The notes beneath the pieces are model-generated. The model had not been told where the DNA came from, made no database searches, and saw only the letters and a list, made by a program, of their open reading frames with translations. From Bartonella harrusi (GTDB lineage Bacteria > Pseudomonadota > Alphaproteobacteria > Rhizobiales > Rhizobiaceae): a stretch of DNA of 64,000 nt. Position 1 is the stretch's first letter; each line of letters begins with the position of its first letter. Shown here one piece after another: positions 15,492 through 46,131 of this stretch. A program made the translations under genes and the position numbers. Location of the stretch: positions 1,764,501 through 1,828,500 of the forward strand of contig NZ_CP101114.1 in NCBI RefSeq assembly GCF_024297065.1, given 5' to 3'.

Positions 15492-15879
15492 GAATTAAGA
15501 AAACAAATTTATTTTTTTGAGGGGGGAAACAAACATTCATATGCGAATCAAGAGAACATTTCACCATAGCAAAGGAAGCAAAAAGGCGTTTCCCAAAAGC
15601 GCTGAGAGAGCTTACGCATTTAAAAATCTTTTTACTCTTTATCTTTGCCATCTGCGCATCTCAAACGATAAGGCGGCATGCATCTAAGCACAGCAAATGA
15701 CTGTTATACTTCATAAAGCAACACCTAAAGAGTCATCATTTAACAAACAGACCGAAAAAATCAAAACACTTACATGTTAAAGCGTAAAAACTTTAATCGA
15801 ATGCAAAAAAACACATAAAAACGCTTTTTGCGTTTCTATGATCAATAAAACACATAAACAGAAGAGGGTAGATTGCAGC

Positions 15880-17034: not shown

Positions 17035-17041
17035 AACACGA

Positions 17042-17323: not shown

Positions 17324-17422
17324 TTGGCAGGCAGACAACACGCACAAAGCATTTCCCCTCACGCACGCATTAAAGCCGCAACAAGGGAAATCCTTCACCA
17401 AAAACGAGCAACAACCACACGA

Positions 17423-17704: not shown

Positions 17705-17803
17705 TTGGCAGGCAGACAACACGCACAAAGCATTTCCCCTCACGCACGCATCAAAGCCGCAACAAGGGAAATCTTTCACCAAAAACGAGCAACAACCACA
17801 CGA

Positions 17804-18085: not shown

Positions 18086-18184
18086 TTGGCAGGCAGACAA
18101 CACGCACAAAGCATTTCCCCTCACGCACGCATTAAAGCCGCAACAAGGGAAATCCTTCACCAAAAACGAGCAACAACCACACGA

Positions 18185-20758
18185 ATGAACATGAGCACAA
18201 TTTTTGAAATCAAACAAAAACTTATCGCACAAGCAGAGACAATTGCACAAATGCTTTTGCCAAAAGGAAAAAGACGTGGCAATGATTGGATTGTAGGAAG
18301 CACACGCGGCGAAGCCGGTCAAAGTTTATCGGTGTGCTTAAACGGCAATAAAGCCGGTCTTTGGTATGATTTTGCAGAAGGCAAAGGCGGTGACCTTTTA
18401 GACCTTTGGTGTGAAGTCAAAGGAATAAGTCTTTCTCAAGCATTAGAAGAAGCACGTACCACTCTCAATCTTACACGCCCCAAACCTTTTATGGCACCCC
18501 ACCGTTCCTATCGTCGTCCACCCGTTCCCACGAGTAACTCACCGCAAAATTTAGTAAAAACCTATCTCAACAAAGAGCGCCATATTCCCTTAGAGATTTT
18601 AAAGCGTTACCGCATAGGAGAAGATGGGGAAAAGATCATTTTTCCCTTTTATAAACCGGATGGCACCCTTGCCTTGGTAAAAGAACGGCTTGCACAAACA
18701 GGTGCAAAACCTAAGCCAACAACGGCACAATGTGAACCGATTCTCTTTGGTTGGCAAGCTCTCACCCCCCCCACAACCGCTGCCACAGCCGCAAACCACG
18801 CAGCCACAACCGCACACCCCGCAACCACAGCCGCAAACCCCACAGCCACAGCCGCAAACCACGCAGCAACAGCCGCACACCCCGCTGCCACAACCGCAAA
18901 CCCCACAGCCACAGCCGCACACCCCACAGTCACAGCCGCACACCCCGCTGCCACAGCCACAAACCCCGCTGCCACAACCGCACACCCCACAGCCACAACC
19001 GCAAACCACGCAGCAACAGCCACAAACCACGCAGCAACAGCCGCAAACCCCGCTGCCACAACCGCAAACCCCACAGCCACAGCCGCACACCCCGCAGCCA
19101 CAGCCGCACACCCCGCAACCACAGCCGCACACCCCGCAACCACAGCCGCAAACCACGCAGCCACAGCCGCACACCCCGCAGCAACAACCGCACACCCCGC
19201 AACCACAGCCGCAAACCACGCAGCAACAGCCGCAAACCCCGCAGCCACAGCCGCAAACCACACAGCCACAGCCGCACACCCCACAGCCACAGCCGCAAAC
19301 CCCACAGCCACAACCGCACACCCCGCAACCACAGCCACAAACCCCACAGCCACAACCGCACACCCCGCAACCACAGCCACAAACCCCACAGCCACAACCG
19401 CACACCCCACAGCCACAACCGCACACCCCGCAACCACAACCGCACACCCCGCAGCCACAACCGCACACCCCGCAACCACAGCCGCAAACCCCACAGCCAC
19501 AGCTGAAAACCAAGCTTTTTTTTCAACCAATCGGACCATTGTTATTACTGAAGGCGAAATTGATGCACTTTCTTTAGCGGCCTATGGATATCCGGCACTC
19601 TCGGTACCGTTTGGCGGAGGCGTTGGGGGCAAACACAATTGGATTGAAAATGAGTTTGACCATTTAGAACCTTTTGAGACCATTTTTTTAGCCACCGATA
19701 TGGACAAACCGGGTGAAGAAGCCGCCCATGAAATTGCCAGCAGGCTTGGCCGCCACCGTTGCTATCGTGTACACTTACCCTGTAAAGATGCCAATGATTG
19801 TTTGACTTCTGGTATTGATGCAGCCACCATAAAAGCAGCCTTTTTATCAGCAAAAAGCTTTGCACCAAAAGGCTTACGCCGCGCCTCAGACTATAAAGAG
19901 CAAGTAATAGGGCTGTTTTGGCCAACCCCTGAACAGCATGAAGGATATACACTTCCCTACCCTAAGCTCAACGGAAAACTGTATTTCCGTCCAGCGGAAT
20001 TGACGCTATGGAGCGGAGCAAGTGGTGCCGGCAAGAGCCAATTGTTATCAGACTGTATTCCCCATTGGATTTCGCAAAAAAGTCGCCTTTGCTTAGCTTC
20101 ACTGGAAATGAAAGGAGAACAATCGTTGCGCCGTTTAACCAAACAAACGGGAGGATTAGAACATCCGACCAGAGAGATGATTGAACGCATTCTCCATTTT
20201 TTAGACGACGGACTGATTCTTTACGAACATGTTGGGAAATCGAGTGTCGACACGCTGCTCGATGTTTTTGACTATTGCCGTGCGCGCTATGGTTGCGATC
20301 AATTCATTATCGACAGTCTTATGCGGCTTGGTATCTGTTCAGATGACTACGCAGGGCAAGAACAAGCAGTTTATAAAATGGTTGATTGGGCTGTTTTAAA
20401 TGCCGTTCACATTCATCTTGTCGCCCATGCCCGCAAAGGAGGGCTAGAGAAAGAGATCCCCGGCACGGAAGATATTAAAGGCGCTTCCGAAATTGGTGCC
20501 AATGCTTTTAACATCATCACCATTTGGCGCAATCGCTCCTTAGAAGATAAAATTTTTGCCGCATCATGTAAAGAAGAAAAAGCAGAATTAGCCAAACGCC
20601 CTAGTGTGATTATGAATATCGCAAAACAACGTTCAGGGGATTTTGAAGGCAAAATTGGTCTTTGGTTTGACCAAAAAACCTACCGCTACCGTTGCTCCTG
20701 CGAACAGCTTATAACGCCAAAGCGTTATCTTGAACGCGGGGTCAACGCCTCTCTCTAA
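18185..20758 (+). CDS. Phage primase-helicase (Toprim + DnaB-like)
   Basis: An 857-residue fused primase/helicase like T7 gp4 or Twinkle, acting in phage DNA replication. Order of parts: N-terminal primase-associated domain (NDWIVGS...AGLWYDFAEGKGGDLLDLW) without zinc cysteines; a linker with a heptad repeat (about residues 195-440); a Toprim domain with the catalytic Glu in VITEGEIDAL and the DMD acid pair in LATDMDKPG; a RecA-like helicase core with Walker A GASGAGKS and a LASLEMKGEQS motif. The ATG at 18185 is chosen because the three truncated copies upstream share it. The low-complexity insertion is in frame on both sides, so the protein appears intact. Confidence 0.88.
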   Translation: MNMSTIFEIKQKLIAQAETIAQMLLPKGKRRGNDWIVGSTRGEAGQSLSVCLNGNKAGLWYDFAEGKGGDLLDLWCEVKGISLSQALEEARTTLNLTRPKPFMAPHRSYRRPPVPTSNSPQNLVKTYLNKERHIPLEILKRYRIGEDGEKIIFPFYKPDGTLALVKERLAQTGAKPKPTTAQCEPILFGWQALTPPTTAATAANHAATTAHPATTAANPTATAANHAATAAHPAATTANPTATAAHPTVTAAHPAATATNPAATTAHPTATTANHAATATNHAATAANPAATTANPTATAAHPAATAAHPATTAAHPATTAANHAATAAHPAATTAHPATTAANHAATAANPAATAANHTATAAHPTATAANPTATTAHPATTATNPTATTAHPATTATNPTATTAHPTATTAHPATTTAHPAATTAHPATTAANPTATAENQAFFSTNRTIVITEGEIDALSLAAYGYPALSVPFGGGVGGKHNWIENEFDHLEPFETIFLATDMDKPGEEAAHEIASRLGRHRCYRVHLPCKDANDCLTSGIDAATIKAAFLSAKSFAPKGLRRASDYKEQVIGLFWPTPEQHEGYTLPYPKLNGKLYFRPAELTLWSGASGAGKSQLLSDCIPHWISQKSRLCLASLEMKGEQSLRRLTKQTGGLEHPTREMIERILHFLDDGLILYEHVGKSSVDTLLDVFDYCRARYGCDQFIIDSLMRLGICSDDYAGQEQAVYKMVDWAVLNAVHIHLVAHARKGGLEKEIPGTEDIKGASEIGANAFNIITIWRNRSLEDKIFAASCKEEKAELAKRPSVIMNIAKQRSGDFEGKIGLWFDQKTYRYRCSCEQLITPKRYLERGVNASL
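18768..19505 (+). repeat. 21-bp minisatellite in the primase linker (about 35 copies)
   Basis: Repeat of 21 bases, for example CAACCACAGCCGCAAACCCC, coding a seven-residue unit such as TAANPTA, TAAHPAT or TTANHAA. The sequence lacks stops in most frames on both strands, which produces long spurious antisense frames. Placed between the N-terminal domain and Toprim, it would form a long Ala/Thr-rich flexible tether. Confidence 0.95.
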
Positions 20759-26569: not shown

Positions 26570-27190
26570 GTGTTCTCCATTTTCCTTAAATTTTTGAAGT
26601 GTTCTTAAATTAGCATAAAAAGGCCCTTTATTATCCTCAACTCATCAATGCTAATATCGATAAATTCTACTTCACCATTCTTGATATAAATAATATCGGG
26701 ACAGAACTTTCTCTCTCCAACTTTAAATATCTCTTCATCATCACATACGATAGCCCCTCGTTCCCTTAATTCCTGTCTTTTATGCTCGACGCATTTTCTA
26801 TGAAAATCTCGTTTTTATTGCACAAACTTGGGTCTCTAAATCTAAAATCCCGATAATGATGAACATTCAAGAACATTTTCTCTGCCGCTCGTTCAAACAC
26901 AGCGTAACGAAACTGCTCTGTTTTAGCCACCTCTTCTGCTATCACCACAGCTCGTTCAAGATGGCTTTCATCAAGAGTTGCCGATTCGCTCTCAGCATCA
27001 AAGCCATATCGATTGTCTGCAGCAAAGCGTTTTTGATAAGAACGTCAAGTCTCCACATCACCGAGCAAAGCAAGAGCTGCAAGATGTAACAGAGCATAAA
27101 AGGAGCCCTTTTTGTTTCATTGGACAACCAATTTACAGTGTTTTTTCCCAAGGCGGAGCGCTCTATTGCGAGCGAAACATTTCCTGAAAA
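26570..27190 (-). pseudogene. Degraded gene, unknown family
   Basis: Broken minus-strand frames can be joined: CYILQLLLCSVMWRLD ... LIKNALLQTIDMALMLRANR, then VVIAEEVAKTEQFRYAVFER, then EEIFKVGERKFCPDIIYIK and VEFIDISIDELRI. At least two frameshifts or stops interrupt them. The ILQLLLC segment also occurs in the repeats at 30.3-31.3 kb. Confidence 0.5.
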
Positions 27191-27207
27191 CTTGTATCTT
27201 CCATCAC

Positions 27208-27631
27208 CTATTTTAAAACTCTATCAAGCTCTTGCTTTAAACGCTCTTCAGTGACTCTTTCTTCAAAAATTTCCAATCCTTTAGCTACAAACGTTATATG
27301 CACCGCTGGTAAATTTTGAAAATTATCAGGATTGATGGTTTGGCAAGCAGCAGAAAAAAGACCGGTCATCACTAAAAGCCCACGATCAAAGTTTGGACAC
27401 TCTTTGTGCATTTCCTCATTATAGAGAAAATACACTTCGCGATCGGGTCAGAAGAGGGGAGCCAAATGATCCCCCGTCCCTCGATTTCCACCGACCACCC
27501 CAAGTTTTTAAAAGCGCTGTCGCCCTTTCCATGGTCAAAGCTTCATCATCAACTTCATAAAGCTCTTCTTGTCCTTCCTCTTCCCATCTTTGCGCATTCC
27601 CATATCTCTTGTTCTCATATCCACTTATCAA
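27208..27631 (-). pseudogene. Family C pseudogene, copy 1
   Basis: Two minus-strand frames joined by a frameshift near 27430: VDDEALTMERATALLKTWGG, then DREVYFLYNEEMHKECPNFD ... AVHITFVAKGLEIFEERVTE. A homologous broken copy lies at 31260-31800 (NDDEALMMQSAIVL, AIQLTFVRKEWKIFQERVRV). Both lie directly downstream of an A-B membrane gene set, so C may once have been the third gene of the unit. Function unknown. Confidence 0.5.
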
Positions 27632-27830
27632 GTTCCTCTTCTCTTGCCCCTCATGCTTTTACAAACATTATCTCATGTTCTTGCAACGCTTTTTGCAGTT
27701 CTCCTTTCACGCAGCAAGACATTCTCACCTGCTTAAAGACACCAAAATAAAGCTGTAAAATAATCATGCTAAAAAAAGAAGTATCTGAAACAATCAATGC
27801 GACAACTAAAAGCACAAAAGAAAAGCTTGT
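27567..27830 (-). repeat. Duplicated 3' end of the A-B membrane gene
   Basis: The segment from TTGTCCTTCCTCTTCCCATC to AGAAGTATCTGAAACAATC is a near-perfect copy of 27826-28085, offset by 259 bases, and includes the B-module tail and its stop. Confidence 0.9.
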
Positions 27831-27908
27831 CCTTCCTCTTCCCATCTTTGCGCATTCCCATATCTCTTGTTCTCATATCCACTTATCAAGTTCCTCTCCT
27901 CTTGCCCC

Positions 27909-28478
27909 TCATGCTTTTACAAACATTATCTCATGTTCTTGCAACGCTTTTTGCAGTTCTCCTTTCACGCAGCAAGACATTCTCACCTGCTTAAAGACAC
28001 CAAAATAAAGCTGTAAAATAATCATGCTAAAAAAAGAAGTATCTGAAACAATCAATGCGACAACTAAAAGCACAAAAGAAAAGAACATGATAACAGTCTC
28101 GCACTTATCCTTATTGTCCTTTTTATAAAGGTTATTTTGAAGACAAGGTCTTTTCTCCCACTGCGGATTTGCTTCTTTTAATTTCCGTCTATTTTTTTTT
28201 AACAAAAACCATAAAATGAGGTGAAATATGATCACGACCGGTATCGAAGCAAAGGCACATACGATCAAAACTTGCCAAAACACAAGGATAGAAAAAAGCG
28301 TAGTCTCATGCCACACAATAAATTTCCATTGTGCGAAGGAGGGTATGAAAACCATTCTGTTCCACAGATCAATGATGAGTGAGAGGGAAGAAATGACGAT
28401 ATATTCTCTTGCCGAAAACCACGCGTTTTCAAAAAAAATACGCAATGCGTTATAAAATTTTGAATTTTTCTGCTTCAT
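27909..28478 (-). CDS. Membrane protein, A-B module fusion (189 aa)
   Basis: Residues 1-130 form an A module: a short soluble lead, FSAREYIVISSLSLIIDLW (first membrane segment), a second membrane segment (LIVCAFASIPVVIIFHLIL) and a basic tail KKNRRKLKEANP. Residues 131-189 form a B module: a membrane segment starting MFFSFVLLVVALIVS and a basic exit GVFKQVRMSCCVKGEL. The order A then B matches the neighbouring separate genes, so a stop between them has been lost. Inner membrane location expected; function unknown. Confidence 0.65.
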   Translation of the reverse strand: MKQKNSKFYNALRIFFENAWFSAREYIVISSLSLIIDLWNRMVFIPSFAQWKFIVWHETTLFSILVFWQVLIVCAFASIPVVIIFHLILWFLLKKNRRKLKEANPQWEKRPCLQNNLYKKDNKDKCETVIMFFSFVLLVVALIVSDTSFFSMIILQLYFGVFKQVRMSCCVKGELQKALQEHEIMFVKA

Positions 28479-28625
28479 TCTCCTCCTTTTTTCTCTTCTG
28501 CTCTCTCTTTTTACTATGATGCAACTACCATTTCATCATAGCGTAATTACCATAGCATAATTTCACCTCGTTTTTTGCATTTGCCCCGTTTTTACAAGGA
28601 CACAGTTTTCAATAACATGACTGTT

Positions 28626-28826
28626 TCAAGAGCATTCCAAGCTCTCTGTATGCTTTTTCATTTCTCTGTTTAATTGTTGTGTCACCTTGAAATACAGTAT
28701 CCAACGCTTAATAAAAGAAGTATACAGCGCAACCACTGCTATCGTTAAAACAACATCAAGTACTATCCCGATAAAAAACAAGAGAAAGAATAATTTCATC
28801 GCAGTTATAAAAGTCATAGCATCCAT
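28626..28826 (-). CDS. Small membrane protein, B module (66 aa)
   Basis: One N-terminal membrane segment (FFLLFFIGIVLDVVLTIAVVAL) followed by the B-module exit motif YTSFIKRWILYFKVTQQLN and a charged tail. Starts 3 bases after the upstream gene's stop, indicating translational coupling in a minus-strand operon. Function unknown. Confidence 0.65.
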   Translation of the reverse strand: MDAMTFITAMKLFFLLFFIGIVLDVVLTIAVVALYTSFIKRWILYFKVTQQLNREMKKHTESLECS

Positions 28827-28829
28827 TTT

Positions 28830-29411
28830 CTACCCTCTTGCTTTCTCTTGGTAAACGGATTTCTCTTGTTTTCGGGTTAATTCCTCCAACTGCTGGATCT
28901 TTTTTTTCAACCGAGAAGTTAATCTTGCACGAAGCACCACAATGACTGGAACGGATAGAAAAACACATGCCGAAATCAAAAACAACGCCATAACAAAACA
29001 AACAAGCACCACAAATCTCTTCTCGTCTACATGAGGCCCCATCTGTTGAAAGAAAGCGATATAAACATAAGTTTTAAAAGCCATAATAATGAGAGAGAGA
29101 CAAGATACCAAGCTATAATCTTTCCAAGAAAAAGCGAGCCATTTTTGAAATATAAAGGCTTTTTCCTCTGTATCCAGAATGGAATTTTGGTACACTTGCT
29201 CTTTTTCACTTTTTTCAAGCTGACAAAAACGCTGTGGCTGCTCTTTGAGAGTGCGCTTTTGTTGCTTTACCCAATAATACAACCTCAAACGTTTGAAAAA
29301 AGCATAATAAGGCATCACAATGATCATATTCACAAAGATGGCAAAAACCACAACACTGAGAACCATAAAGAAAAAGAACGGCATTATGAGCATTATGAGT
29401 CCTGGTCCCAT
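28830..29411 (-). CDS. Membrane protein, B-A module fusion (193 aa)
   Basis: N-terminal B module (two-part hydrophobic stretch, then YYAFFKRLRLYYWVKQQKR) is followed by a charged linker and an A module: LAFSWKDYSLVSCLSLIIM, a second membrane hairpin with FLSVPVIVVLRARL, and the coiled-coil-like tail LKKKIQQLEELTRK. Begins 5 bases after the preceding A gene. Compare the fusions at 36490-37044 and 37069-37638. Confidence 0.7.
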   Translation of the reverse strand: MGPGLIMLIMPFFFFMVLSVVVFAIFVNMIIVMPYYAFFKRLRLYYWVKQQKRTLKEQPQRFCQLEKSEKEQVYQNSILDTEEKAFIFQKWLAFSWKDYSLVSCLSLIIMAFKTYVYIAFFQQMGPHVDEKRFVVLVCFVMALFLISACVFLSVPVIVVLRARLTSRLKKKIQQLEELTRKQEKSVYQEKARG

Positions 29412-29416
29412 AACGC

Positions 29417-29779
29417 TTATCCCCTCACCGCTTCGTCTTGCTGCTCAGTTACCTTTTCTTTTTGCTGCATGGTTTTTTTCAACTTCCGTTCTCGCATACT
29501 GTGAATCCCCCAAAGAATAGGGAAAGGTGTGAGAATACAAAGCCAAATAAAAACTGGCAGGAGGAAAATCACATACCCCACACCGCTCCACCCCTGCAAC
29601 GTCTGCATAGTGGTCTTTGCATAAGCAGGAACGTTTAAAGCCATCATGATGGGAAATGCGCAGAGCATTATAAAAAAGCTCTGTAATATGATTTTATAAT
29701 TTTCACATGAAAAAACCAATGATTTTTTATATGAAAAAGAAGTTCGTCCTTTATAAGACGTTGCGTTTTTCTTCTTCAT
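29417..29779 (-). CDS. Membrane protein, A module (120 aa)
   Basis: A module alone: KKSLVFSCENYKIILQSFFI leading into membrane segment 1, membrane segment 2 (YVIFLLPVFIWLCILTPFPI) and the tail RKLKKTMQQKEK. First gene of its cluster, with a well-formed promoter upstream (29838-29866). Confidence 0.7.
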   Translation of the reverse strand: MKKKNATSYKGRTSFSYKKSLVFSCENYKIILQSFFIMLCAFPIMMALNVPAYAKTTMQTLQGWSGVGYVIFLLPVFIWLCILTPFPILWGIHSMRERKLKKTMQQKEKVTEQQDEAVRG

Positions 29780-29837
29780 TTTTTCCCCTGCTTTTTAACT
29801 GTTTATTGCCCTTAAGTTTTTATCCTATCCTTCACAG

Positions 29838-29866
29838 CATATAAAAGGATTCTTCATTTTTCTCAA
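29838..29866 (-). promoter_or_regulatory. Sigma70-type promoter of an A/B cluster
   Basis: On the minus strand: TTGAGA, 17 bases, TATATG. The same arrangement with a shared spacer start (AAAA) precedes the cluster at 32382, showing a conserved promoter. Confidence 0.6.
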
Positions 29867-29879
29867 CAACTGATTTTTT

Positions 29880-30345
29880 GAAGCGAATAACTTTAAACAC
29901 ACCCTCTCCATAAATTTTCCTTCCCCTCCATTATAAGATCCATGCTTTACTGGAATTTCTCAATCTGCGTTGGAAGAGGACCACAGATATTTGCATCCAC
30001 ACACCAAACATCTGCACCACCCTGCTTCGCAATCGACACCATTGACGTATTGATGTATAAAAAGAAGATTATAACTATCGTATTTACCCTTTTCTCACAA
30101 TCATTTTCATCATACACGATGAAACTGTGTTCCTTTCATTGTTATTTTTTTCTCAACAGCTTTTTTAGATCCCCTCTTTAATTTTAGGTCCCCTCTTTAT
30201 ACTGCATATTGTACAGCTGCGAGTCTCTCACTCTAAAAGACTGAGCAGTTTCCCTTTTCATGGGCACTTTTCAACAACGTGTTCCAGCAAATTATGACGG
30301 ATTTTTTCCCTTTGTTCCCTCTTTTTCTATCACCACAGTGCATTC
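29880..30345. other. No gene seen
   Basis: AT-rich plus-strand frame of 79 codons at 29942 lacks a ribosome binding site and homology. Otherwise nothing recognised. Confidence 0.35.
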
Positions 30346-31325
30346 AAGATGAATCCCCCAATAGCAGCCTGACGCAAGCCTAATACCAAACCGATCCCTT
30401 GGGTCGGCGCAAGCCCGATATAAACCAGATACCAACCCGATGCAAAGGGGCCTCTCCTGCCATATCAACACACGGATCAACACAAGGACACCATCCAGCG
30501 GAAGCCTCCCCAAAAGCCCCAACAAACCTTGAAGATGTCTTGACCCAAAAGCAAAAACAGCTTTCCTTCTCCAAAGCCCTTTGTACGAGAGCATTAAATC
30601 TCCCGATCAACCAAGCAAAGCAAGAGTTGCAAAATATCAAAGAGCAATAAAAAGCCCCCTAGGTTCTCCTTTTTTGCCAAGATGAATCCCCCAATAGCAG
30701 CCTGACGCAAGCCTAATACCAAACCGATCCCTTGGGTCGGCGCAAGCCCGATATAAACCAGATACCAACCCGATGCAAAGGGGCCTCTCCTGCCATATCA
30801 ACAAACGGATCAACACAAGGACACCATCCAGCCGAAGCCTCCCCAAAAGCCCCAACAAACCTTGAAGATGTCTTGACCCAAAAGCAAAAACAGCTTTCCT
30901 TCTCCAAAGCCCTTTGTACGAGAGCATTAAATCTCCCGATCAACCAAGCAAAGCAAGAGTTGCAAAATATCAAAGAGCAATAAAAAGCCCCCTAGGTTCT
31001 CCTTTTTTGCCAAGATGAATCCCCCAATAGCAGCCTGACGCAAGCCTAATACCAAACCGATCCCTTGGGTCGGCGCAAACCCGATATAAACCAGATACCA
31101 ACCCGATGCAAAGGGGCCTCTCCTGCCATATCAACACACGGATCAACACAAGGACACCATCCAGCCGAAACCTCCCCAAAAGCCCCAACAAACCTTGAAG
31201 ATGTCTTGACCCAAAAGCAAAAACAGCTTTCCTTCTCCAAAGCCCTTTGTACGAGAGCATTAAATCTCCCGATCAACCAAGCAAAGCAAGAGTTGCAAAA
31301 TATCAAAGAGCAATAAAAAGCCCCC
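30346..31325 (-). repeat. 333-bp tandem repeat, 3 copies
   Basis: Units start at 30346, 30679 and 31012 (AAGATGAATCCCCCAATAGC) and are nearly identical. The period is 111 codons, so the same frame stays open per unit on both strands. On the minus strand the end of each unit (DILQLLLCLVDREI) continues the frame of the family C pseudogene, suggesting the array arose by duplication of that gene's 3' region. Confidence 0.93.
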
Positions 31326-31800
31326 TAAGCTCTCCCCTTTTCCAAAAGGCAGTCTCTTTTTCCAAAGTGGAGGAGCCACTTGGAAACGAAGCCTTTCATG
31401 CAAATCACAATCTTCCACCATCCTCTTTAAAGCTTTATCGAGAGCTTTCGTGAATTGCCCCACACGCACCCTTTCTTGAAAGATTTTCCATTCCTTCCTC
31501 ACAAAGGTCAATTGTATGGCAAGCAAAGGTTTTGCATAATGAGAATCAAGAATACGACAAACTATGGCAAGAATCTCGTTCATCACGCAAATTACAATCA
31601 CATTGGAAACAGTTCTTCCTTTTCTTATCCTCACAAGCCCTTCATTTTCTCATGATGATAGAAGAAGAATCCTTCGTGATCGGATAATGATAGAGCGCAA
31701 GACAACCACCTTTTTTTGCAATTCCACAGGCCATCACAAAGTTTTTAAAGCACTATCGCACTTTGCATCATAAGCGCTTCATCATCATTTTCACAAAGTG
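31260..31800 (-). pseudogene. Family C pseudogene, copy 2
   Basis: Minus-strand frames NDDEALMMQSAIVL (with a stop), SDHEGFFFYHHEK and then ILDSHYAKPLLAIQLTFVRK ... FTKALDKALKRM ... RFQVAPPLWKKRLPFGKG. Homologous in order to 27208-27631. Begins just after the B gene at 31815. Confidence 0.5.
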
Positions 31801-31814
31801 CGTTGCGTACTTTT

Positions 31815-32030
31815 TTACACATCCGCTACACCATTTTCCCGACATGCCGGCACCAGTGCTGTATGATTTTCTTGAAGCACCCTTTTCAATTCTTTTTTTA
31901 CCTGGCGATTCATTCTCACCCGCTTGAAGACAGAGTAATAAAGTGCAAAAATTAACATGTTAATGAAAAGTGCAAAGACAGCGACGAACAGAGCCGCCAC
32001 ACTGATTAATATGATCAAATCACGGTCCAT
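31815..32030 (-). CDS. Small membrane protein, B module (71 aa)
   Basis: One membrane segment (LFVAVFALFINMLIFALYY) and the basic exit SVFKRVRMNRQVKKELKRVL. Starts 4 bases after the A gene upstream. Function unknown. Confidence 0.7.
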   Translation of the reverse strand: MDRDLIILISVAALFVAVFALFINMLIFALYYSVFKRVRMNRQVKKELKRVLQENHTALVPACRENGVADV

Positions 32031-32034
32031 TTTC

Positions 32035-32382
32035 TTATTGCTCCTGAGGTGTTTTTTCTCGTTGTCGAATTGCTTCTTCCAATTTTTGGATATTTTTTTT
32101 CAAAACAGACCCCAATATGATACGAAGCACCAACGTAACCGGTATAAGAAGAAGAATACATACCGCTATGAAGGCAACAATCAGTATGATAAAAGCAAGC
32201 GTAGTAGCTTGCCACTCTGTTAATTTCCACCCTAACAGGATTGGTACAAAGAGAGCCACTCTTAGCACAATAATAACAACAGCAATACAGAAGATCACTT
32301 TATATTCTCTGCTTGAAAGAAACACGTCTTCAAACAAAAAAGAGCGCGGCTCTTTGTCGATTTCCAAATTTTTCCCCTTCAT
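32035..32382 (-). CDS. Membrane protein, A module (115 aa)
   Basis: Soluble lead, FLSSREYKVIFCIAVVIIVL (membrane segment 1), a short loop, membrane segment 2 (LIVAFIAVCILLLIPVTLVL) and the tail LKKNIQKLEEAIRQRE, which looks amphipathic. The simplest A-B pair of the window, with its own promoter. Confidence 0.7.
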   Translation of the reverse strand: MKGKNLEIDKEPRSFLFEDVFLSSREYKVIFCIAVVIIVLRVALFVPILLGWKLTEWQATTLAFIILIVAFIAVCILLLIPVTLVLRIILGSVLKKNIQKLEEAIRQREKTPQEQ

Positions 32383-32433
32383 TTTTCCCCTTTTTCATTT
32401 TGCTCGTTTATGAAGATATTGCTCACCTCGCGC

Positions 32434-32462
32434 TATATAAAGAAGATCTTTGTTTTTCTCAA
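32434..32462 (-). promoter_or_regulatory. Sigma70-type promoter of an A/B cluster
   Basis: Minus strand TTGAGA-N17-TATATA, closely matching the promoter at 29838-29866 in sequence and distance to the A gene. Confidence 0.6.
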
Positions 32463-32639
32463 CACTTGATTGCATTAAACCCGTTTTATAACCATCATTT
32501 TAATTTTCCCTCTTTTGTGACGAAAGGATCTCAACAAGATCTCTTGTGCTTTTGATGACAAATATCGCTCCTTCATCCCCCACAAGAAGTCCCTACTCTC
32601 TTCATTCTTATTTTCAGTCTGACTGATTAAATAATATTT

Positions 32640-33780
32640 CTATTTAAACAATATTACATTGACAGGAATTGCGGATCTCTCGCTCTCAATTCTGATAACA
32701 AATCACTCTGCCATAAACAATCGATCTGGTCGTCATTGCAAACAAAGCGTGACAGAGTTGTTTTGTCTTTTCCATCTCTTCTGTCTCAACATAACCGGTT
32801 CAAGATCGATTTTGGAACCCTTCCATGGCAAATATTTTACCGGCAAAGCCATACCAAACAAGGCAACACCATACTCTCTTATGAGTAAAAATCACCAGCA
32901 AAAACAACATCGACAGGGCATACTCACTCAAGAGCCGTATGGATAATGCCGCACAACACTATCTACCACTAAGCACCAATATCTCTATGCAAAAAGTGTA
33001 CCAAGCACCATCTACAATGCCATCCTCTTGTGATGAGAAGGCAAAGAATAAAGGGGATGAATTTGCAACAAACGAGTTTTTAACATGCAAGAGATAATCA
33101 AAAAAGCACAAGACCTTACCTTTATAAACGGTATAAACCACGCAGTGCTATACTCTCTTATGAGTAAAAATCATCAAAAACGGCACCAAAAAGGCAACAC
33201 GAGCAGAGCCATACCAGCAAAGTGCACCAGCAAGGAATGCTGGCTCAAGAGCCATACGATACCACACAACACTATCTACCGCTAAGCACCAATGTCTCTA
33301 TGCAAAAAGTGTACCAAGCACCATCTACAATGCCATCCTCTTGTGATGAGAAGGCAAAGAATAAAGGGGATGAATTTGCAACAAACGAGTTTTTAACATG
33401 CAAGAGATAATCAAAAAAGCACAATACCTTACCTTTATAAACGGTATAAACCACGCAGTGCTATACTCTCTTATGAGTAAAAATCATCAAAAACGGCACC
33501 AAAAAGGCAACACGAGCAGAGCCATACCAGCAAAGTGCACCAGCAAGGAATGCTGGCTCAAGAGCCATACGATACCACACAACACTATCTACCGCTAAGC
33601 ACCAATGTCTCTATGCAAAAAGTGTACCAAGCACCATCTACAATGCCATCCTCTTGTGATGAGAAGGCAAAGAATAAAGGGGATGAATTTGCAACAAACG
33701 AGTTTTTAACATGCAAGAGATAATCAAAAAAGCACAATACCTTACCTTTATAAACGGTATAATCTTTACGCAGCAATACA
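32640..33780. repeat. 313-bp tandem repeat, 3 copies
   Basis: CACCAAT[G/A]TCTCTATGC starts at 32974, 33287 and 33600. Each unit contains TTTTTAACATGCAAGAGATA and CTCTTATGAGTAAAAATCA. Short open frames of 60-66 codons occur on both strands without homology. Confidence 0.93.
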
Positions 33781-33874
33781 GTCTCTTGTTAGTGAAGATC
33801 AAACGCTACCATACATCTTGTGAATTCATTGCGTGTTGCTCTTAATGCGCTTCAAAAGCACTCTGATCGTTAGT

Positions 33875-34611
33875 TTAAAAATTTGTTAAATATTGCTTCC
33901 ATTTTTCAAAAGAGCTGTATCTCACAGGTGTCCGTACACTTCTTTTGGGCAGCATTATACGATATACTCTTCTAGCAAGATCGCATACTCTCGCTGTGTT
34001 TTTAAAACGGATGATCTCGTTATCTAATATCATCTGCTCTGTACGAACAGTTTGCTCTTTTCGGCTAATGCCATTTGGAGAATCCAAAAACTTTTCTGCA
34101 TATTCAAACATTGGGTCATTAAAATGTGTTTCAAATTTTCCTTGAAAAAAAATGGTTGTGCAGAGAAGGCAAAGAATCATAAAATTTTTCTCCACGAATT
34201 CTAAAATTTTCAAGTTCAGTTTTTAAGTCGTTAAATGTGAGTGTTGGCATACTTTTATCACCTTGCCACAAATCAGAAAAGCGTCCACAAAAAACAAGTA
34301 CTATATGGTAATACTTTAAAATATCAAATTTTGAAGGATTGCTTGGCAATGTTATGAAATATCTCCCAAAATCGCTATCGTCATGTGGCATGGGTATGGT
34401 ACTTTTTATATTTTTATAAAAATCGTCCATAGGGAATCTTGTACTTTTTAACCTTTCTAGGTATTGCGATTCTGTATAATTTTCCACGCATATATTTTTC
34501 GTAAAGCTTATCGCACTTATCTAGACTATCTACCCTAGTACATCCCAATAATATTGGTATAGAAACAAAGGCTATAAATGTTATAGTGCGTATTATGAAA
34601 AGTGATTTCAT
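33875..34611 (-). pseudogene. Broken lipoprotein gene
   Basis: Starts as a lipoprotein (signal segment, lipobox ILLGC), then needs a frameshift near 34490 to reach ENYTESQYLERLKS ... FRIRGEKFYDSLPSLHNHF and a second near 34140 to reach FETHFNDPMFEYAEKF ... KKLARRV-like C-terminus. The three frames overlap in order and would form one protein of about 235 residues. Two independent frameshifts make it a pseudogene unless they are sequencing errors. Family not recognised. Confidence 0.6.
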
Positions 34612-34889
34612 AACTTAACCCTTTAAATTTTTATCATTAACACTGCACAACCGATTCACTTTAAATATATCAATATGTGCTCTTTTAACGTTGGAAATGG
34701 TATTTAATGCCATTGCTGTACTTGGTTCTATTCCATCTAAACAAGGGAAAATGCAGTGTAAAATCCCCCGCATTTATAGATTTTTATTATTTGGAAGACG
34801 TATTGTATAACATTAGACAATACAGAGCCAATTCCACCAGTCAAAAGAAAATGGATACAACTAAAACGTGTGTATGGAGTGTGTAAAAT

Positions 34890-35560
34890 TCATTCCTAAT
34901 AAAACAACTCGTATTTAAAAAAAAGCTGTCATGAGAGATGCTAAGAATACTGGTAACAAAAGCAACAATAAAGGATTCTGCGCAATCAGGAAGCCCGTAT
35001 GAAAGTGCGGATCGAGACGGAGTGGCATCTCTTCCTTCTCTATGGTTCTCATCTATAATTCTCAGAAAATGCTCCAGAATCCCCAATGAAGAGAAGACAA
35101 GAGCGAGGCACAAAGCACAAAATTACCATCACGAGAAATGGGATGAGAAACGCAATATGGTTTGGAAGCAGGTATGATTGGTATCGTCATGGTGTCGATG
35201 TTTTTGGTTTAATGTGCATTTTCTCTATAAAACAACTCGTATTTTAAAAAAAGCTGTCATGAGAGATACTAAGAATACTGGTAACAAAAGCAACAATAAA
35301 GGATTCTGCGCAATCAGGAAGCCCGTATAAAAGTGCGGATCGAGACGGAGTGGCATCTCTTCCTTCTCTATGGTTCTCATCTATAATTCTTAGAAAATGC
35401 TCCAGAATCCTCAATGAAGAGAGGACAAGAGCGAGGCACAAAGCACAAAATTACCATCACGAGAAATGGGATGAGAAACGCAATATGGTTTGGAAGCAGG
35501 TATGATTGGTATCGTCATGGTGTCGATGTTTTTGGTTTAATGTATATTGTCTATGAAGCA
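34890..35560. repeat. 328-bp tandem repeat, 2 copies
   Basis: AAAACAACTCGTATTT... at about 34901 repeats at about 35229 with few changes. The minus strand reads as part of a hydrophobic protein (LGILEHFLRIIDENHREGRD). No intact gene. Confidence 0.9.
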
Positions 35561-35769
35561 AAGTTTATACAAAAAGATTGCCATTAAAGATGCGTATACC
35601 ACAGAACCTGTCATTAAAATCAAATTGATGTCCCACAGCAAAGCTTTGATAATAAAATAATCTAGGGTCTCAAGCATTGCCAAGCAATACAAATCTCGTA
35701 AAATACCACAAAGCATCATGCAAAAAATGCTTTACAGCTTTTTCATCACAGCAAGTCATTGTACCAATT

Positions 35770-35885
35770 ACTTGGCACGACACAACTTCCCTCTTTGAAA
35801 AAGAAGTATAAAGCACAAGAATATTTCCTTAACAGAAAAATCAAAAGTAATCGCTAGAAAAAACAGCAATGAAGAAACACGAAAA
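35770..35885 (-). pseudogene. Degraded B module
   Basis: A minus-strand trace ILVLYTSFSKR resembles the B exit motif and lies just after the A gene at 35958, where the alternating pattern predicts a B module. Stops interrupt the rest. Confidence 0.35.
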
Positions 35886-35957
35886 GGCTTCCGTTTTTCC
35901 CACGCACAAGATGGGATGTGTTCCCCACCGCAGGATTAGGATGGGCACCATCTTTCT

Positions 35958-36299
35958 TTATCTTTGGCTCTCTTCTTCCAATTGCTGAATCATTTTTTTT
36001 AATTTACGCGTTACTATAATATGGAGCACCCAAATAATCGGAGAAAAGACAAGAGCACAGCCAAGAATCCATGCAAGCGGCTGTAAGATTGTAAAGGAAA
36101 GGAAATCATATCCGCCGCCTACTATGCATAATCCTAAAAACCCGCATACGATCTCCAATCCTAAAAAAAAGGGAAACGGAGCAGTCATCATGACCACAGA
36201 AATATAAAATATTCTTTTATAGTCTTGTTTCGAAAGGGTCCATTTTTCTTCAAAAAACGAAGGAAGAGTCTTCTTCTCAAACATTGAATTCTGCTTCAC
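35958..36299 (-). CDS. Membrane protein, A module (113 aa)
   Basis: Lead with WTLSKQDYKRIFYISVVMM, two membrane regions (the second PLAWILGCALVFSPIIWVLH) and the tail RKLKKMIQQLEEESQR. Starts 9 bases after the B gene. Last intact member of the largest cluster. Confidence 0.68.
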   Translation of the reverse strand: MKQNSMFEKKTLPSFFEEKWTLSKQDYKRIFYISVVMMTAPFPFFLGLEIVCGFLGLCIVGGGYDFLSFTILQPLAWILGCALVFSPIIWVLHIIVTRKLKKMIQQLEEESQR

Positions 36300-36308
36300 T
36301 TTACTTTT

Positions 36309-36500
36309 TTATTTTACTGTTTTTTCAATTCTTGCATCGCACTCTTGAAGCACTTTTAATGCTGTTTTTGCTTTACAATAGAGCCTCGCACGCTTGAAAA
36401 ACAAGTAAAAAATGACCAAAATCGGTACGGTAACGATAAAGCCCATGATGACCGAAGTCAAAAAATTGAGGGTCAAGAATGTTACAAAACTACTCGTCAT
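36309..36500 (-). CDS. Small membrane protein, B module (63 aa)
   Basis: Starts at MTSSFVTFLTLNFL (ATG at 36500); the frame is open six codons further up. Membrane segment followed by FYLFFKRARLYCKAKTALK. Overlaps the stop of the preceding gene by 11 bases, implying coupled translation. Confidence 0.65.
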   Translation of the reverse strand: MTSSFVTFLTLNFLTSVIMGFIVTVPILVIFYLFFKRARLYCKAKTALKVLQECDARIEKTVK

Positions 36501-37044
36501 GTTTTCCTCCACGCACATCCTGCATGCAAAGTGTTGTCTCTTGTCGCATCGTTCCCTCTTCCAGTTGCTGGATTGTTTTTTTCAATTTACCAGTCAATTT
36601 GATGCAGAATAACCCGACGATTGGTGCAAAAGAAATAAAAAAGGCCGATAGAAGACTCAAGAGCAGAGCGATAAAAAGGCTCACGTCATTTTTCCATCCT
36701 GCCATATTTGCTGTAAAAAATGCAGTTTTTAAAAGCGCTATGATGAGAGAGAGACAACAGATTATTTTCAACTCTCTTGGCCAAAGCAACAGAGATTCCT
36801 TCAAATGAAAGGCAGACACTGTTGTCTCCAATTTTGCTTTTTGTTCTCTGTCTCCCCGTTGCTGAGAATCGAAGGGATGGGTTGCACTTTTTTTCAGTTC
36901 TCCAAGCATATTAAAGTATAACCTCACCTGCTTGATGAAAAAATAAAAAAGCCCAACGATAAACATACCAACTATAATGGTTGCGATGATGAGTCCTAGA
37001 AGACCCCAAATTCCTAAAAAAACAAGCACTTTCTTCCCTCTCAC
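36490..37044 (-). CDS. Membrane protein, B-A module fusion (184 aa)
   Basis: B module (IIVGMFIVGLFYFFIKQVRL), charged linker, A module (LLLWPRELKIICCLSLIIAL, then FFISFAPIVGLFCIKLTG) and the tail LKKTIQQLEEGTMRQ. Same architecture as 28830-29411. Function unknown; inner membrane expected. Confidence 0.7.
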   Translation of the reverse strand: MRGKKVLVFLGIWGLLGLIIATIIVGMFIVGLFYFFIKQVRLYFNMLGELKKSATHPFDSQQRGDREQKAKLETTVSAFHLKESLLLWPRELKIICCLSLIIALLKTAFFTANMAGWKNDVSLFIALLLSLLSAFFISFAPIVGLFCIKLTGKLKKTIQQLEEGTMRQETTLCMQDVRGGKHDE

Positions 37045-37068
37045 ATTGTATTTATCGCTTGAGCTGCT

Positions 37069-37638
37069 TTAAGCAAAATTTTCCAATCTTTTCATTTTCT
37101 TCTTCACTTTCAGATTAAGTATACCGTAGAAGATTAAAATTATCGGTAAGGAAAAAGCCACCAATGCGATGCTCAAAAAGACGATAAGAGAGAAAAAAGA
37201 ATACACAGCAAATAAGAAAGGTTCACTCGTCATCAACTGTTTTAAGTCCATTCCTTGTAACAGTTTTTCTCCTGCCATACCGACCGAAATGAGGAAAGGC
37301 AAGAAAATCAAAACAAAGACCATCAGAGAGAAAATGAAGATTCTTTTATAATCCTTTTTGGAAAGAACCAAAGATTCTTTGAATGAAGAGAGATAAGCTT
37401 TCACATCAAATATTGGTCCATTTTCTTCTATTTTCTTTTCGTGACCGCTGAAGCGCTGTGTTGTATCCTTTTTAAGTTTTTTAAAGGTTTTGGAAAGCCC
37501 GCGTGCACGGCAAAGACGTTTAATAAAAGAGTAATAAACAGCAACAATTGCCATATTGGCACTAATGCTTACCATACTAAAAAGGATGACCAGCAACCCA
37601 ACGACGAAAATGACGGACAACGTTGCCAAAAGATCCAT
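37069..37638 (-). CDS. Membrane protein, B-A module fusion (189 aa)
   Basis: B module ending AIVAVYYSFIKRLCRARG, linker with FKKLKKDTTQRFSGHEKK, then A module (LVLSKKDYKRIFIFSLMVFV, a second membrane segment IALVAFSLPIILIFYG) and the short tail KKKMKRLENFA. Lies 37 bases after the A gene and 24 bases before the next fusion. Confidence 0.7.
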   Translation of the reverse strand: MDLLATLSVIFVVGLLVILFSMVSISANMAIVAVYYSFIKRLCRARGLSKTFKKLKKDTTQRFSGHEKKIEENGPIFDVKAYLSSFKESLVLSKKDYKRIFIFSLMVFVLIFLPFLISVGMAGEKLLQGMDLKQLMTSEPFLFAVYSFFSLIVFLSIALVAFSLPIILIFYGILNLKVKKKMKRLENFA

Positions 37639-37675
37639 TTTTTTCCTACCCTGTTCTATGAAACCATGAAATGTG

Positions 37676-38191
37676 CTATTGAGATGACTTTCCCAATTGC
37701 TGCTCCAATTGCTGGACCATGCCCTTCAATTCACGTTTCACCATAAGGCGGACAACAACAACAACTGGAAAGAGCGCGAGAAGCGCTCCCAAAATAAATT
37801 GTGGCATCATAAGTATATAAGCCCAAACGCCATTCCACCCAGCGGCACGATACAATTCTGTCATACTCATTTCACTAGAAAAAAATCCCATCAAGAATAT
37901 ATCTTTCAAATTTTCCAGAAGCGTTTTATGAAGATTTTCTTGAAACATTGCCTCAGCTTGTTCCTTAGACACCACATGAAACAACCCCATAGGTTGGATG
38001 CATGCTACAACAACCAAAAACACTAATATGATAAGGGATAGGAAAAAGAGTATGACATAATCTTTTGTAGAGAGAGCCATCTTATCTTTAAAAGCAAGCA
38101 GCCGATATTCTTTATCAAAAACGCTCTGAGAGACAAAGTCCGCACCTTCACGCTGTTGCAAAGATTGCTGTTGTGGTTTGTCTGTGGTCAC
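37676..38191 (-). CDS. Membrane protein, A module (171 aa)
   Basis: First gene of the largest cluster. A Gln-rich soluble lead (TTDKPQQQSLQQREG), MALSTKDYVILFFLSLIILV, an enlarged loop of about 50 residues, a second membrane segment (FILGALLALFPVVVVVRLMV) and the tail RELKGMVQQLEQQLGK. The start is a GTG at 38191 behind a GGGGGGAG box. The longest A version seen here. Confidence 0.7.
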   Translation of the reverse strand: MTTDKPQQQSLQQREGADFVSQSVFDKEYRLLAFKDKMALSTKDYVILFFLSLIILVFLVVVACIQPMGLFHVVSKEQAEAMFQENLHKTLLENLKDIFLMGFFSSEMSMTELYRAAGWNGVWAYILMMPQFILGALLALFPVVVVVRLMVKRELKGMVQQLEQQLGKSSQ

Positions 38192-38209
38192 GTTACGCTC
38201 CCCCCTTCA

Positions 38210-38929
38210 TAAATATTTTAGACACGCAAAAAATAAGCTATCTAACGAAAATGCTTCTCACAACCACGCAAATTGCATTCCATCCTCATCCTTTTCAGTT
38301 TCTCAACAAAAGGAGGGACACTGTCATACACTCTAAACACTGTCACACACTTTGGAGAGAATGACGGATCATGCCAACGAGCACTGCGAAACTGGGGAAT
38401 CTCACTAGCATCTAAAATAAGAAAAGTAAAACACTTTTAAGAGTAAAAGAAGATAAAAACAAACTTACCGCACATAAAAATGAATGTATGACTTTGTCCC
38501 TCTAGAACTCTGCATAACAACACCCCTCTAAACTTGTCAGTGATCGTTTTCCTATTGAAGAGCTTTTGATGCCTTTTTTATTGTTTTTTTGATGGTTTGT
38601 GTTTTCTCAATATTGAATCATTTTTCACCACACAAAACAAAAGAATACAGAACAACAAAGGAGAGGTGTATGATAAAACATTATGCTAAGCGTCCCACAA
38701 TAAGATGATGACAACACAATAGGCTTCACTTTTCCAGTGCAATACCATTTAAAAAAGGGAAATCTTATTAAAAATGGAATGAAAAATAATGCGTTTCTTT
38801 TGAGAAAAGAATCATCGATAACAAAGCCCTATCAATTTATTTTGCTGCGTTTTTTTGTTAATGTGGAAAAACCCTTGACTTTGTGTCTGTCTCATTCATG
38901 AAGGAGCAAACCGGACGACCCTTCTCTTT
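38210..38929. other. No gene seen
   Basis: AT-rich sequence with short frames only; no RNA gene recognised. Confidence 0.35.
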
Positions 38930-39165
38930 ACCCCTATGTTGCAACAACTCTTGCATTCACACGATTCATGAAAGGCATTTGCCTCCTTTCCTCACGCGTT
39001 TTATCCACACGATCATCCCACTTGTGACGTACAAGGAGAGGGTTTTGCTTGAGACAATAAAAGGGAGTAAAACGAAAGGATTTTACGATATTCAGATCCA
39101 TCATTCTAGATGCAAAACGATAAATTATCTTTATAAATTAATTTGTTATCTTGCCAAAGAACAGT
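38930..39165 (-). pseudogene. Remnant: integrase 5' end plus leader
   Basis: Minus strand: AATTAATTTATAAAGATAAT leader, GTACGTCACAAGTGGGATGA and GGCAAATGCCTTTCATGAAT, the same series as at 44.6 and 60.4 kb. Coding part lost after a few codons. Confidence 0.55.
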
Positions 39166-39749
39166 CTTATCCCAAGGACAGTCTTACCCCAAGAACAACC
39201 TTAAGAGAGACACTCCCGCACCTCTCTCACATGACCCTTTGATTGCCCACAGAAGAGTAAGCTATAAAGGCAAAGAAACAAATCCATACAAGAAGCACCA
39301 GCGTCAAAGAAAAAAGATTGCTTTTATGAACAGGAGAAAACTGTCGATCTTCTGTACGATAAATCACAAATTCTACTGTTTATCCTGCTTATCCTACACA
39401 ATTTTCATGGAGGGCACAAAATTATCCCTTATCCAATGGCCCTTATGACTTCTTGTCAAAACAGCTCCCTTGATCCCGTGTCAGAACGGCCCTTCTTATC
39501 CCTTATCAGAATAGTGTTTTTGAAACCTCCACCTTATTCAAACTCTCAGAGAAAAAGAAAGCAAAAAACTCTTTAGCTCTGCTCAAAAGGAACAGTTTTT
39601 TAAAGGAAAGGAGCAATACTTTTACGCGGTTTTGATCTCTCCTTTTCTCTTCTCACCAAGATTTGATAAAAATGCACTTTCTGAGCATATGCTAGAGCGT
39701 ATGCTTATAGCATATGCTTATCTCTATAACCTTGACTTTATGACCTTGT
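39166..39749. other. No gene seen; short iterated octamers
   Basis: Three GCRTATGC octamers (39685, 39697, 39710) lie 12-13 bases apart. No supported open frame. Confidence 0.35.
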
Positions 39750-39907
39750 TCATTCTTCTTTTTGCGTTCCTCTTTCATGCGAAGATACGAATCTCACACG
39801 TTTGACAAACGAGGTATAAATTCCGACAAGGAGCATACTGTTTAAAAGAGCAATAATGATAAGACCCAAAAAACAAGAATACCTAACAAGACTGTAAAAA
39901 CAATCAT
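39750..39907 (-). pseudogene. B module pseudogene
   Basis: Starts MIVFTVLLGILVFWVLS behind a GGGGGG box, then a frameshift before SMLLVGIYTSFVKRVRFVSS, the B exit motif. Directly follows the A pseudogene upstream, keeping the A-then-B order. Confidence 0.6.
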
Positions 39908-39917
39908 TTTTTCCCCC

Positions 39918-40352
39918 CTATAATGTTTGCGCACAAACTGATATAGCTTGTTGTTCAGATGGTTCTTCCCATTGCTGAAGCATTGCTTTCAAATGTCAAT
40001 TGATAATGACATGGAGGACCAAAACGGCAGGGAGGAAGATGATAGCCAATCCCCAAATAAAAACCGGCAGGAAGATGATAAAATCTATAAAGCCATCATC
40101 CCCAGTATAAGTTCCTCCAGTAAATAAACCGAAGAAAAACATTAGCAGATACACGGCTCGAATGGCTCCTAAAATCAACAAAACGAGAGCAATGCAGAAG
40201 GTTATTTTATAATCTTTCATAGAAAGCATCATATCCGCCTTGAAATCCAAGAGTTCAGATTTTCTACTCTATGATGCCGCACTCTTTTGCGTTTGAGCAG
40301 ATTCACGTTGTGATTATAATTCATCTTGTGGTTGTCTCTTTTTTGTTGTCAT
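39918..40352 (-). pseudogene. A module pseudogene with three in-frame stops
   Basis: One continuous frame from ATG 40352: MTTKKRQPQDEL, stop, SQRESAQTQKSAAS, stop, then the intact core DFKADMMLSMKDYKITFCIA ... LVLHVIIN, stop, and the tail HLKAMLQQWEEPSEQQ. It aligns with the A gene at 37676-38191 (MTTDKPQQQSLQQREG, QQLEQQLGK). Decay by nonsense mutation only. Confidence 0.7.
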
Positions 40353-46060: not shown

Positions 46061-46131
46061 AACCACAACATGATTCAGCCAGAATATAAAGCTAGCATTC
46101 CATGTCGATCGTTAACATGGAAGTTTATATT

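Follow-up and report, generated by a model that had tools for sequence, protein, structure and literature searches.

What do the small membrane-protein genes encoded in tandem beside the phage-derived run-off replication (ROR) origin of Bartonella do? We examined this question in Bartonella harrusi (genome of 2.27 Mb on two contigs), in a 64,000-nucleotide stretch of contig NZ_CP101114.1 (positions 1,764,501 to 1,828,500; hereafter the window), where two modules, A and B, alternate on the minus strand between 26.6 and 40.4 kb. An earlier note on this DNA had described A, with two membrane segments, and B, with one, as recurring minus-strand modules, and the open reading frames (ORFs), profiles built from the copies and BLASTP confirmed both. 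The reading that we favour, tentatively and with somewhat less than even confidence, is that the array constitutes a membrane-anchored immunity assembly against contact-delivered FhaB toxins.

The A protein, about 115 amino acids (aa) long, begins with a polar region that includes an S..DYK motif, continues through two membrane segments, of which the second contains an invariant proline, and ends in an LKK..QQLEE tail. B, about 70 aa long, has a single extended hydrophobic stretch followed by a basic exit, for example YYSFFKR.RLY. The second half of A is weakly similar to the tail of B (hhalign E 6.5e-5, 64% probability); therefore B may derive from half of A, although this is unproven. When ten ORFs were scanned against Pfam and NCBIfam, none exceeded a curated cut-off, and by these cut-offs neither A nor B is homologous to known immunity proteins. 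The best matches of the same number of ORFs in PHROGs (E 4e-4) and PADLOC (E 0.038) were weak. As all of these matches were low and of a kind typical of membrane segments, assignment of A or B to a known family was rejected. A plasmid origin was rejected as well, one A protein finding no match by tblastn in 72,556 plasmid records, and so was a phage origin, one protein with B fused to A (written B=A) finding none in 50,697 phage records. A and B are real families for which no earlier description was found in the literature searched. The earlier note had allowed that the copies might prove unrelated between clusters or belong to a well-known family; BLASTP gave significant matches between clusters (29779 against 35958, E 1.6e-9; 32382 against 28830, E 9e-18), and neither A nor B falls in such a family.

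On the minus strand of the window the profiles marked nine places for A and nine for B, along with weak remnants (Table 1). At E <= 0.001 each profile had nine matches in the whole genome; all nine A matches lie inside the window, as do eight B matches among those listed. The modules are ordered A, B=A, B, A=B in cluster I; A, B in cluster II; A, B=A, B=A, B, A, decayed B in cluster III; and decayed A, decayed B in cluster IV. This order agrees with that given previously, and the 147-base gap reported between array modules is real. Eight A and seven B modules are intact, together with an eighth B that is a recent duplicate. An extra B copy (27651-27845), which results from a 258-bp tandem duplication (27568-28083, 99% matching), is an exception to strict alternation.

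Profile searches of 71 genomes of the genus, which the earlier note had proposed along with a search of phages, found A in 42 and B in 40. All named homologues were from Bartonella (32 matches with the A profile from 3,773 candidates scored, 40 with the B=A profile from 3,110) in a collection of 5.8 billion proteins, searched in a way that reaches only relatives sharing short words; some matches carried no name. Module order was then compared between the window and 20 regions from 18 other genomes (19 genomes in all), with frameshifted module fragments merged before counting. Adjacent modules at most 400 bp apart formed 159 AB, 95 BA, 15 AA and one BB pair. Alternation, present in 254 of 270 pairs, is thus strong, and the claim that it is strict does not hold. 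The same genomes contain 59 B=A and 20 A=B fusions. Together with the alternation and one B-DUF6990-A fusion described below, these fusions support the proposal that A and B are partners in one membrane assembly.

The array is old, its positions are conserved, and selection maintains it. A common pattern (A.B; A.B=A.B=A.B.A; A.(A).B; A.B=A.B.A=B) can be traced through the arrays, modified by additional copies, split modules and losses. When modules were required to cover 75% or more of the model, 165 of 175 A and 148 of 153 B had their best match outside their own genome. Median identity to that match was 79% for A and 83% for B, whereas the closest paralogue within the genome reached medians of 35% and 46%. 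All eight intact A modules of the window matched the same pattern position in genome G026 at 72-92% identity, as against 24-38% for paralogues within the window, and these positions are intact although the G026 array is partly inverted. Six of the eight well-covered B modules of the window likewise matched the same G026 position, and the remaining two, a recent duplication, matched each other. Since best matches lie across genomes, most copies and fusions must be old and position-specific; the best matches found within one genome (10 A, 5 B) represent some recent copies. Two claims were therefore not upheld: the fusion boundaries do not shift, because the same fusions occur at the same positions in other species, and ongoing expansion by tandem duplication is not supported as the main process. 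Random reshuffling of the fusions was rejected by the same positional orthology.

Median dN/dS was 0.49 for A and 0.44 for B (545 reciprocal pairs each, not independent of one another and restricted to dS between 0 and 1, others being dropped), with about 3% of pairs above 1. Values near 0.45 indicate relaxed purifying selection and not neutrality. Between the B. harrusi genome and G026, single pairs such as the B modules at 27663 and 36330 gave 1.0-1.2, and three flanking genes gave 0.14 (c7), 0.16 (c5) and 0.79 (c4).

The earlier note had also suggested that pseudogenes of a family C might be a third component. Some B modules of relatives stand at the start of longer ORFs (386-597 aa). The eight that were scanned all matched PF22499 (DUF6990), scoring 58-70 bits where the cut-off is 27. 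Every one of the 18 such ORFs longer than 350 aa aligns to DUF6990 proteins and has an A module within 250 bp upstream, in keeping with that suggestion. One ORF of 435 aa (L041:7675-8979, minus strand) is a triple fusion, B-DUF6990-A. The C remnants of the window align to these B-DUF6990 proteins, at 27818-26644 in several frames and at 32129-31227 including the B of cluster II, and one decayed piece (27000-27101; G000:C2:1791500-1791601) hits DUF6990 itself at 27.7 bits. Family C is therefore PF22499, a named but uncharacterised family. It is present in 36 of the 71 genomes (35 above the family cut-off), all of them A-positive. One B-DUF6990 protein of 597 aa (L055:8508-10298, minus strand) has a long PVGALRDAEQ-type repeat linker between its two parts.

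Away from the ROR, DUF6990 is found in proteins of 652-876 aa at seven loci (L066, L067, L069-L073), with four DUF6990 stretches in the one protein scanned. All seven loci contain members of an fhaB pre-toxin cluster and of a small SUKH-type cluster; the members scanned were FhaC, FhaB with TPS, DUF637 and PT-VENN domains, LHH nuclease ends and SUKH proteins. At four of the seven (L066, L067, L070, L072) DUF6990 directly follows the toxin C-terminus of one shared, non-LHH family, either behind fhaB or behind an orphan toxin end, which is the CdiI position; this holds for C only. At L066, in B. harrusi itself, the DUF6990 gene begins immediately behind the fhaB stop, and Pfam called no toxin domain in that FhaB end. 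The shared toxin end has the motif RPD...(I/V)(E/D)(I/V)KTG (the L072 copy is only 117 aa), which we take to resemble PD-(D/E)xK nucleases. The array DUF6990 is closest to the last domain of the long proteins (42-58% identity, median 49%, in 108 pairs, 18 x 6; the L073 protein has no matching last domain), identity to their other domains having a median of 25% and reaching at most 34% over at least 100 residues. From its position and relationships, DUF6990 is fairly likely to be an immunity domain of FhaB/CdiA-type contact toxins, and it may neutralise the adjoining toxin family.

DUF6990 is rare outside the genus, too rare for a statistical context test: 2 of 297 genomes drawn from the order (B. 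harrusi and G116), 1 of 385 from the class (B. harrusi) and 3 of 398 from the phylum (B. harrusi, G922 and G1062) were positive. In G116 (L068), DUF637 with PT-VENN, Imm11 and DUF6990 lie near one another. At the fha loci (L066, L067, L069-L073), orphan pre-toxin ends also stand in arrays, those scanned being LHH nucleases, together with numerous SUKH-cluster proteins, an arrangement that resembles known polymorphic-toxin arrays.

At their tail, the B-DUF6990 proteins can be aligned with the matching toxin end over its first half. A hidden Markov model (HMM) matched 17 of 18 tails (E 5e-8 to 8e-3, in a search among 18 related sequences), and profile-profile comparison gave 93% probability (hhalign E 2.4e-7; reversed control E 0.39), whereas the long DUF6990 proteins had no HMM match to the toxin half. 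Among 41 readable tails from 58 sequences, some of them near-duplicates, 25 keep PD, 28 keep (D/E)xK and 16 keep both. Given this motif loss, the tail looks like a degenerate toxin half and is probably its non-catalytic remnant. A PDB sequence search with one B-DUF6990 protein and one matching toxin end found nothing below E 0.1.

In the mechanism that we propose, A would sit in the inner membrane as a helical hairpin whose long coiled tail lies in the cytosol, and B would be a single long hydrophobic helix ending in a basic tail on the cytosolic side. The two would bind each other and work as partners, forming a membrane platform or further membrane immunity units, and A/B units without C may also protect. 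The DUF6990 domain that some B proteins possess would face the cytosol, kept at the inner membrane, where it would bind and block FhaB C-terminal toxins entering through that membrane from neighbouring cells. Siblings would be protected, and protection would also be kept in lineages that lost the fha locus. Of the 42 A-positive genomes 30 have TPS proteins, as do 2 of the 29 A-negative ones, a difference that shared ancestry may explain. Nine of the 36 DUF6990-positive genomes (several of them drafts) had no TPS match, which fits protection kept without attack, as the part consulted of a paper on orphan CdiI genes reports for these (PMC3150448).

The orphan CdiA-CT/CdiI arrays described in that part of the paper (PMC3150448) are the closest comparison. 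As in these, immunity-type genes lie apart from an intact toxin and the array carries a domain found in the CdiI position; the B. harrusi genome also has fhaB loci with VENN pre-toxin, LHH nuclease and SUKH genes. In contrast, the immunity-type domain of Bartonella is membrane-anchored through B, and the array lies at the ROR, away from the fha loci, with positions conserved across species. It contains no intact toxin module, only a degenerate half, and most units lack the immunity-type domain.

Several observations weigh against an immunity function. By sequence, A and B themselves are not linked to the toxin loci, and both C genes in the window are decayed while the A/B ORFs are intact. Six of the 42 A-positive genomes lack DUF6990 and 12 lack a TPS match; A and B must therefore act without C, or without the presumed attacker, in these genomes. 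The A-positive genomes are related, and co-occurrence counts are accordingly not independent. Fusions in both orders conflict with a single orientation for a one-pass B. At three of the seven toxin loci DUF6990 is not directly behind an intact member of the shared toxin family; L071 seems to keep only the start of the shared end, and L069 and L073 have a SUKH-cluster gene before DUF6990. Two of three non-Bartonella cases (L096, L097) had no toxin neighbour in the ORFs inspected. Foldseek found nothing below E 1 for a B-DUF6990 model of low confidence (pLDDT 61), and the literature searched yielded no mention of DUF6990 and no tested function for it. Finally, immunity repertoires usually turn over fast, whereas array positions are conserved: in our between-species comparison they are orthologous, and the variable, strain-specific repertoire expected of an orphan immunity array was not seen.

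The array also lies at the ROR locus. A match to the ROR helicase was found in 56 of the 71 genomes at E <= 1e-30 (partial in G063). In the 27 genomes with both genes on one contig, the nearest A lay 4.3-13.2 kb from the helicase (median 8.0 kb; the G039 distance was measured across a contig end taken as circular), a count outside which fall 13 further genomes with A and helicase that are drafts with the two on different contigs or had no A rows listed. The nearest A was on the strand opposite the helicase in 26 of the 27, the exception being a weak fragment in G016. Among all A modules, 212 of 218 were on the opposite strand, the exceptions being that fragment and the inverted part of G026; the arrays are therefore almost always transcribed towards the helicase. 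In the window, 381-bp tandem copies of the start of the helicase gene (17036-18423, plus strand) lie before the gene, whose N- and C-terminal parts are separated by a long repetitive insert made of 35 copies of a 21-bp repeat (18777-19511, plus strand). Beside the run-off origin the array would be among the most amplified DNA of the cell, and would thus probably often be spread by the gene transfer agent (GTA).

Published accounts of this locus, cited here from partial texts, describe it differently. In the ROR, gene 4, upstream of the helicase, shares features with the lambda O gene (PMC3610622), and we identify our locus with the ROR and phage cluster III (PMC2697382, PMC3610622) by its helicase and by a DUF1376 gene in the place of gene 4. 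Both show variable neighbouring DNA, but the DNA that these papers call mostly non-coding here encodes conserved membrane-protein arrays. According to a 2009 paper on B. grahamii, islands BgGI 3 and 6 contain "membrane proteins" and BgGI 15 contains phage cluster III; the portions consulted of the literature on the Bartonella ROR and islands contain no description that we found of A/B arrays.

Because of the ROR site and the reported involvement of Tol-Pal in uptake of the Bartonella GTA (BaGTA; PMC6899734, in part), the chief rival is that A and B form an ROR-linked exclusion or gating module, by which cells resist or regulate the entry of GTA particles or DNA in the manner of superinfection-exclusion membrane proteins. 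The distance and strand relations above fit this idea, as does the dependence of BaGTA transfer on distance to the ROR stated in the same partial source (PMC6899734). The helicase was present in 40 of 42 A-positive genomes, and 13 of 15 helicase-negative genomes lacked A, the exceptions, G068 and G069, being drafts. Like phage exclusion proteins, A and B are small membrane proteins encoded beside phage replication genes and linked to a phage/GTA module. However, they have no sequence relation to SieB above the Pfam cut-off (14.2 bits against 26), no relative of the single B=A query occurs in the phage records, and the PHROGs membrane-protein matches are weak. As 16 helicase-positive genomes lack A, and the DUF6990 domain and toxin-like tail are left unexplained, we consider exclusion of the GTA unlikely.

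Less likely again, in our view, is that the array no longer has a function and is the decaying remnant of a phage or toxin locus, persisting because ROR amplification reintroduces it time after time. The window does contain two decayed C genes, decayed cluster IV, a decayed B and much tandem-repeat DNA around the array. A relic would hardly have kept eight A and seven B modules intact and in order, nor would the same positions be intact in G026 despite inversion, and its dN/dS would be expected near 1.

Several A-positive genomes carry one further A-B pair elsewhere, mostly beside housekeeping genes that we take to be dapB- and gpmA-like. In seven of eight such loci examined (L082-L085, L087-L089) the pair follows a gene D, whose product, a coiled-coil protein about 177-196 aa long, probably has a signal peptide (judged by eye) and matches no Pfam family above cut-off; a relative of D also occurs in the ROR array region of G026 (L039). 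This second locus, which lacks members of the YopJ cluster, counts against the proposal that the A-B pairs act in host interaction or as accessories of a secretion or effector system whose genes lie close by. YopJ-family genes (46102-49850) and a phage-lysozyme gene do follow the array in the window, and the same sequence clusters recur beside the arrays of relatives, but such a neighbourhood may be common only because the ROR zone collects genes of this kind. The one similarity to a secretion component is a VirB3 match below the Pfam cut-off (E 0.063; 14 bits against 23.9), and we see a slim chance for an accessory role.

We also considered a wider version of both functions, to which we give a slightly slimmer chance. 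About eight distinct A-B pairs, fixed in position, with a DUF6990 receptor would make up a new heteromeric inner-membrane machine at the replication origin of the GTA. It would police entry, recognising contact-delivered toxins through C and gating or excluding GTA delivery through A-B, possibly in imitation of TolQ/ExbB-type subunits, given that Tol-Pal takes part in GTA uptake. In VIA and Foldseek comparisons of the predicted B=A structure, entries of these three-pass stator proteins (TolQ/ExbB) headed the VIA list, at scores that were not significant and had no backing from sequence. Against PF01618 (TolQ/ExbB/MotA) there was no Pfam match up to E 0.1, and hhalign gave less than 1% probability, near the reversed controls. 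Least likely of all, A and B might be small membrane-acting toxins or holin-like proteins with self-inhibiting partners, as small hydrophobic proteins paired beside phage genes could suggest; against this, distinct positions are conserved over the long term, the supposed toxin is fused to its partner in both orders, and B is fused to an immunity-type domain.

Features of the window are listed in Table 1. Dense tandem repeats lie between and around the clusters, at 24658-25525 (79-bp units), 30345-31335 (333 bp), 32952-33762 (313 bp), 34899-35543 (328 bp), 40709-42818 (16 bp) and 44767-45357 (199 bp); the 16-bp array reads open in at least two frames, as long SxPxxQ-type ORFs. The genes after the array include three tandem YopJ-family acetyltransferase genes (PF03421, E 4.5e-72 to 4.5e-78; 46102-49850, plus strand), with members of this sequence cluster in 12 of 37 loci compared. 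Near the window end is a MotA/ExbB-family gene (PF01618; 61937-62875, minus strand; match G000:C2:1826539-1826889).

Table 1. Features of the ROR locus and of the A/B array, in window coordinates.
Feature	Position	Strand	Size or basis
DUF1376 protein in the place of ROR gene 4 (proposed O-like protein with origin)	15838..17034	+	gene-4 match from order in PMC3610622 (partial text)
ROR phage-type primase-helicase	18086..20758	+	Toprim and DnaB_C matches (DnaB_C below cut-off)
Decayed B-DUF6990 gene (family C)	26644..27845	-	B copy 27651-27845, then DUF6990 and tail pieces in several frames; tblastn with relatives' proteins
A=B fusion, cluster I	27909..28478	-	189 aa; profiles, positional orthology
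B, cluster I	28626..28826	-	66 aa; profiles, positional orthology
B=A fusion, cluster I	28830..29411	-	193 aa; profiles, positional orthology; structure predicted
A, cluster I, position 1	29417..29779	-	120 aa; 92% identity to same position in G026
Decayed DUF6990 part after cluster II B (family C)	31227..31814	-	tblastn with relatives' B-DUF6990 proteins
B, cluster II	31815..32030	-	71 aa; probably start of broken B-DUF6990 gene
A, cluster II	32035..32382	-	115 aa; profiles, positional orthology
Decayed B, cluster III	35673..35828	-	profile E 0.002; weak
A, cluster III, last	35958..36299	-	113 aa; profiles, positional orthology
B, cluster III	36309..36518	-	69 aa; profiles, positional orthology
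B=A fusion, cluster III	36490..37044	-	184 aa; profiles, positional orthology
B=A fusion, cluster III	37069..37638	-	189 aa; profiles, positional orthology
A, cluster III, long-loop form	37676..38191	-	171 aa; profiles, positional orthology
Decayed B, cluster IV	39753..39917	-	profile E 9.6e-7
Decayed A, cluster IV	39921..40268	-	profile E 1.4e-22 for 39999-40268; piece 39921-39995 only E 0.3

The ROR region of an animal-associated genus, whose origin drives gene transfer, thus holds two membrane-protein families in conserved order, and DUF6990 gains a testable function together with a candidate toxin partner. If the A/B arrays carry toxin immunity, Bartonella would link contact-dependent kin discrimination to its gene transfer agent, and protection would be placed where DNA is most amplified.

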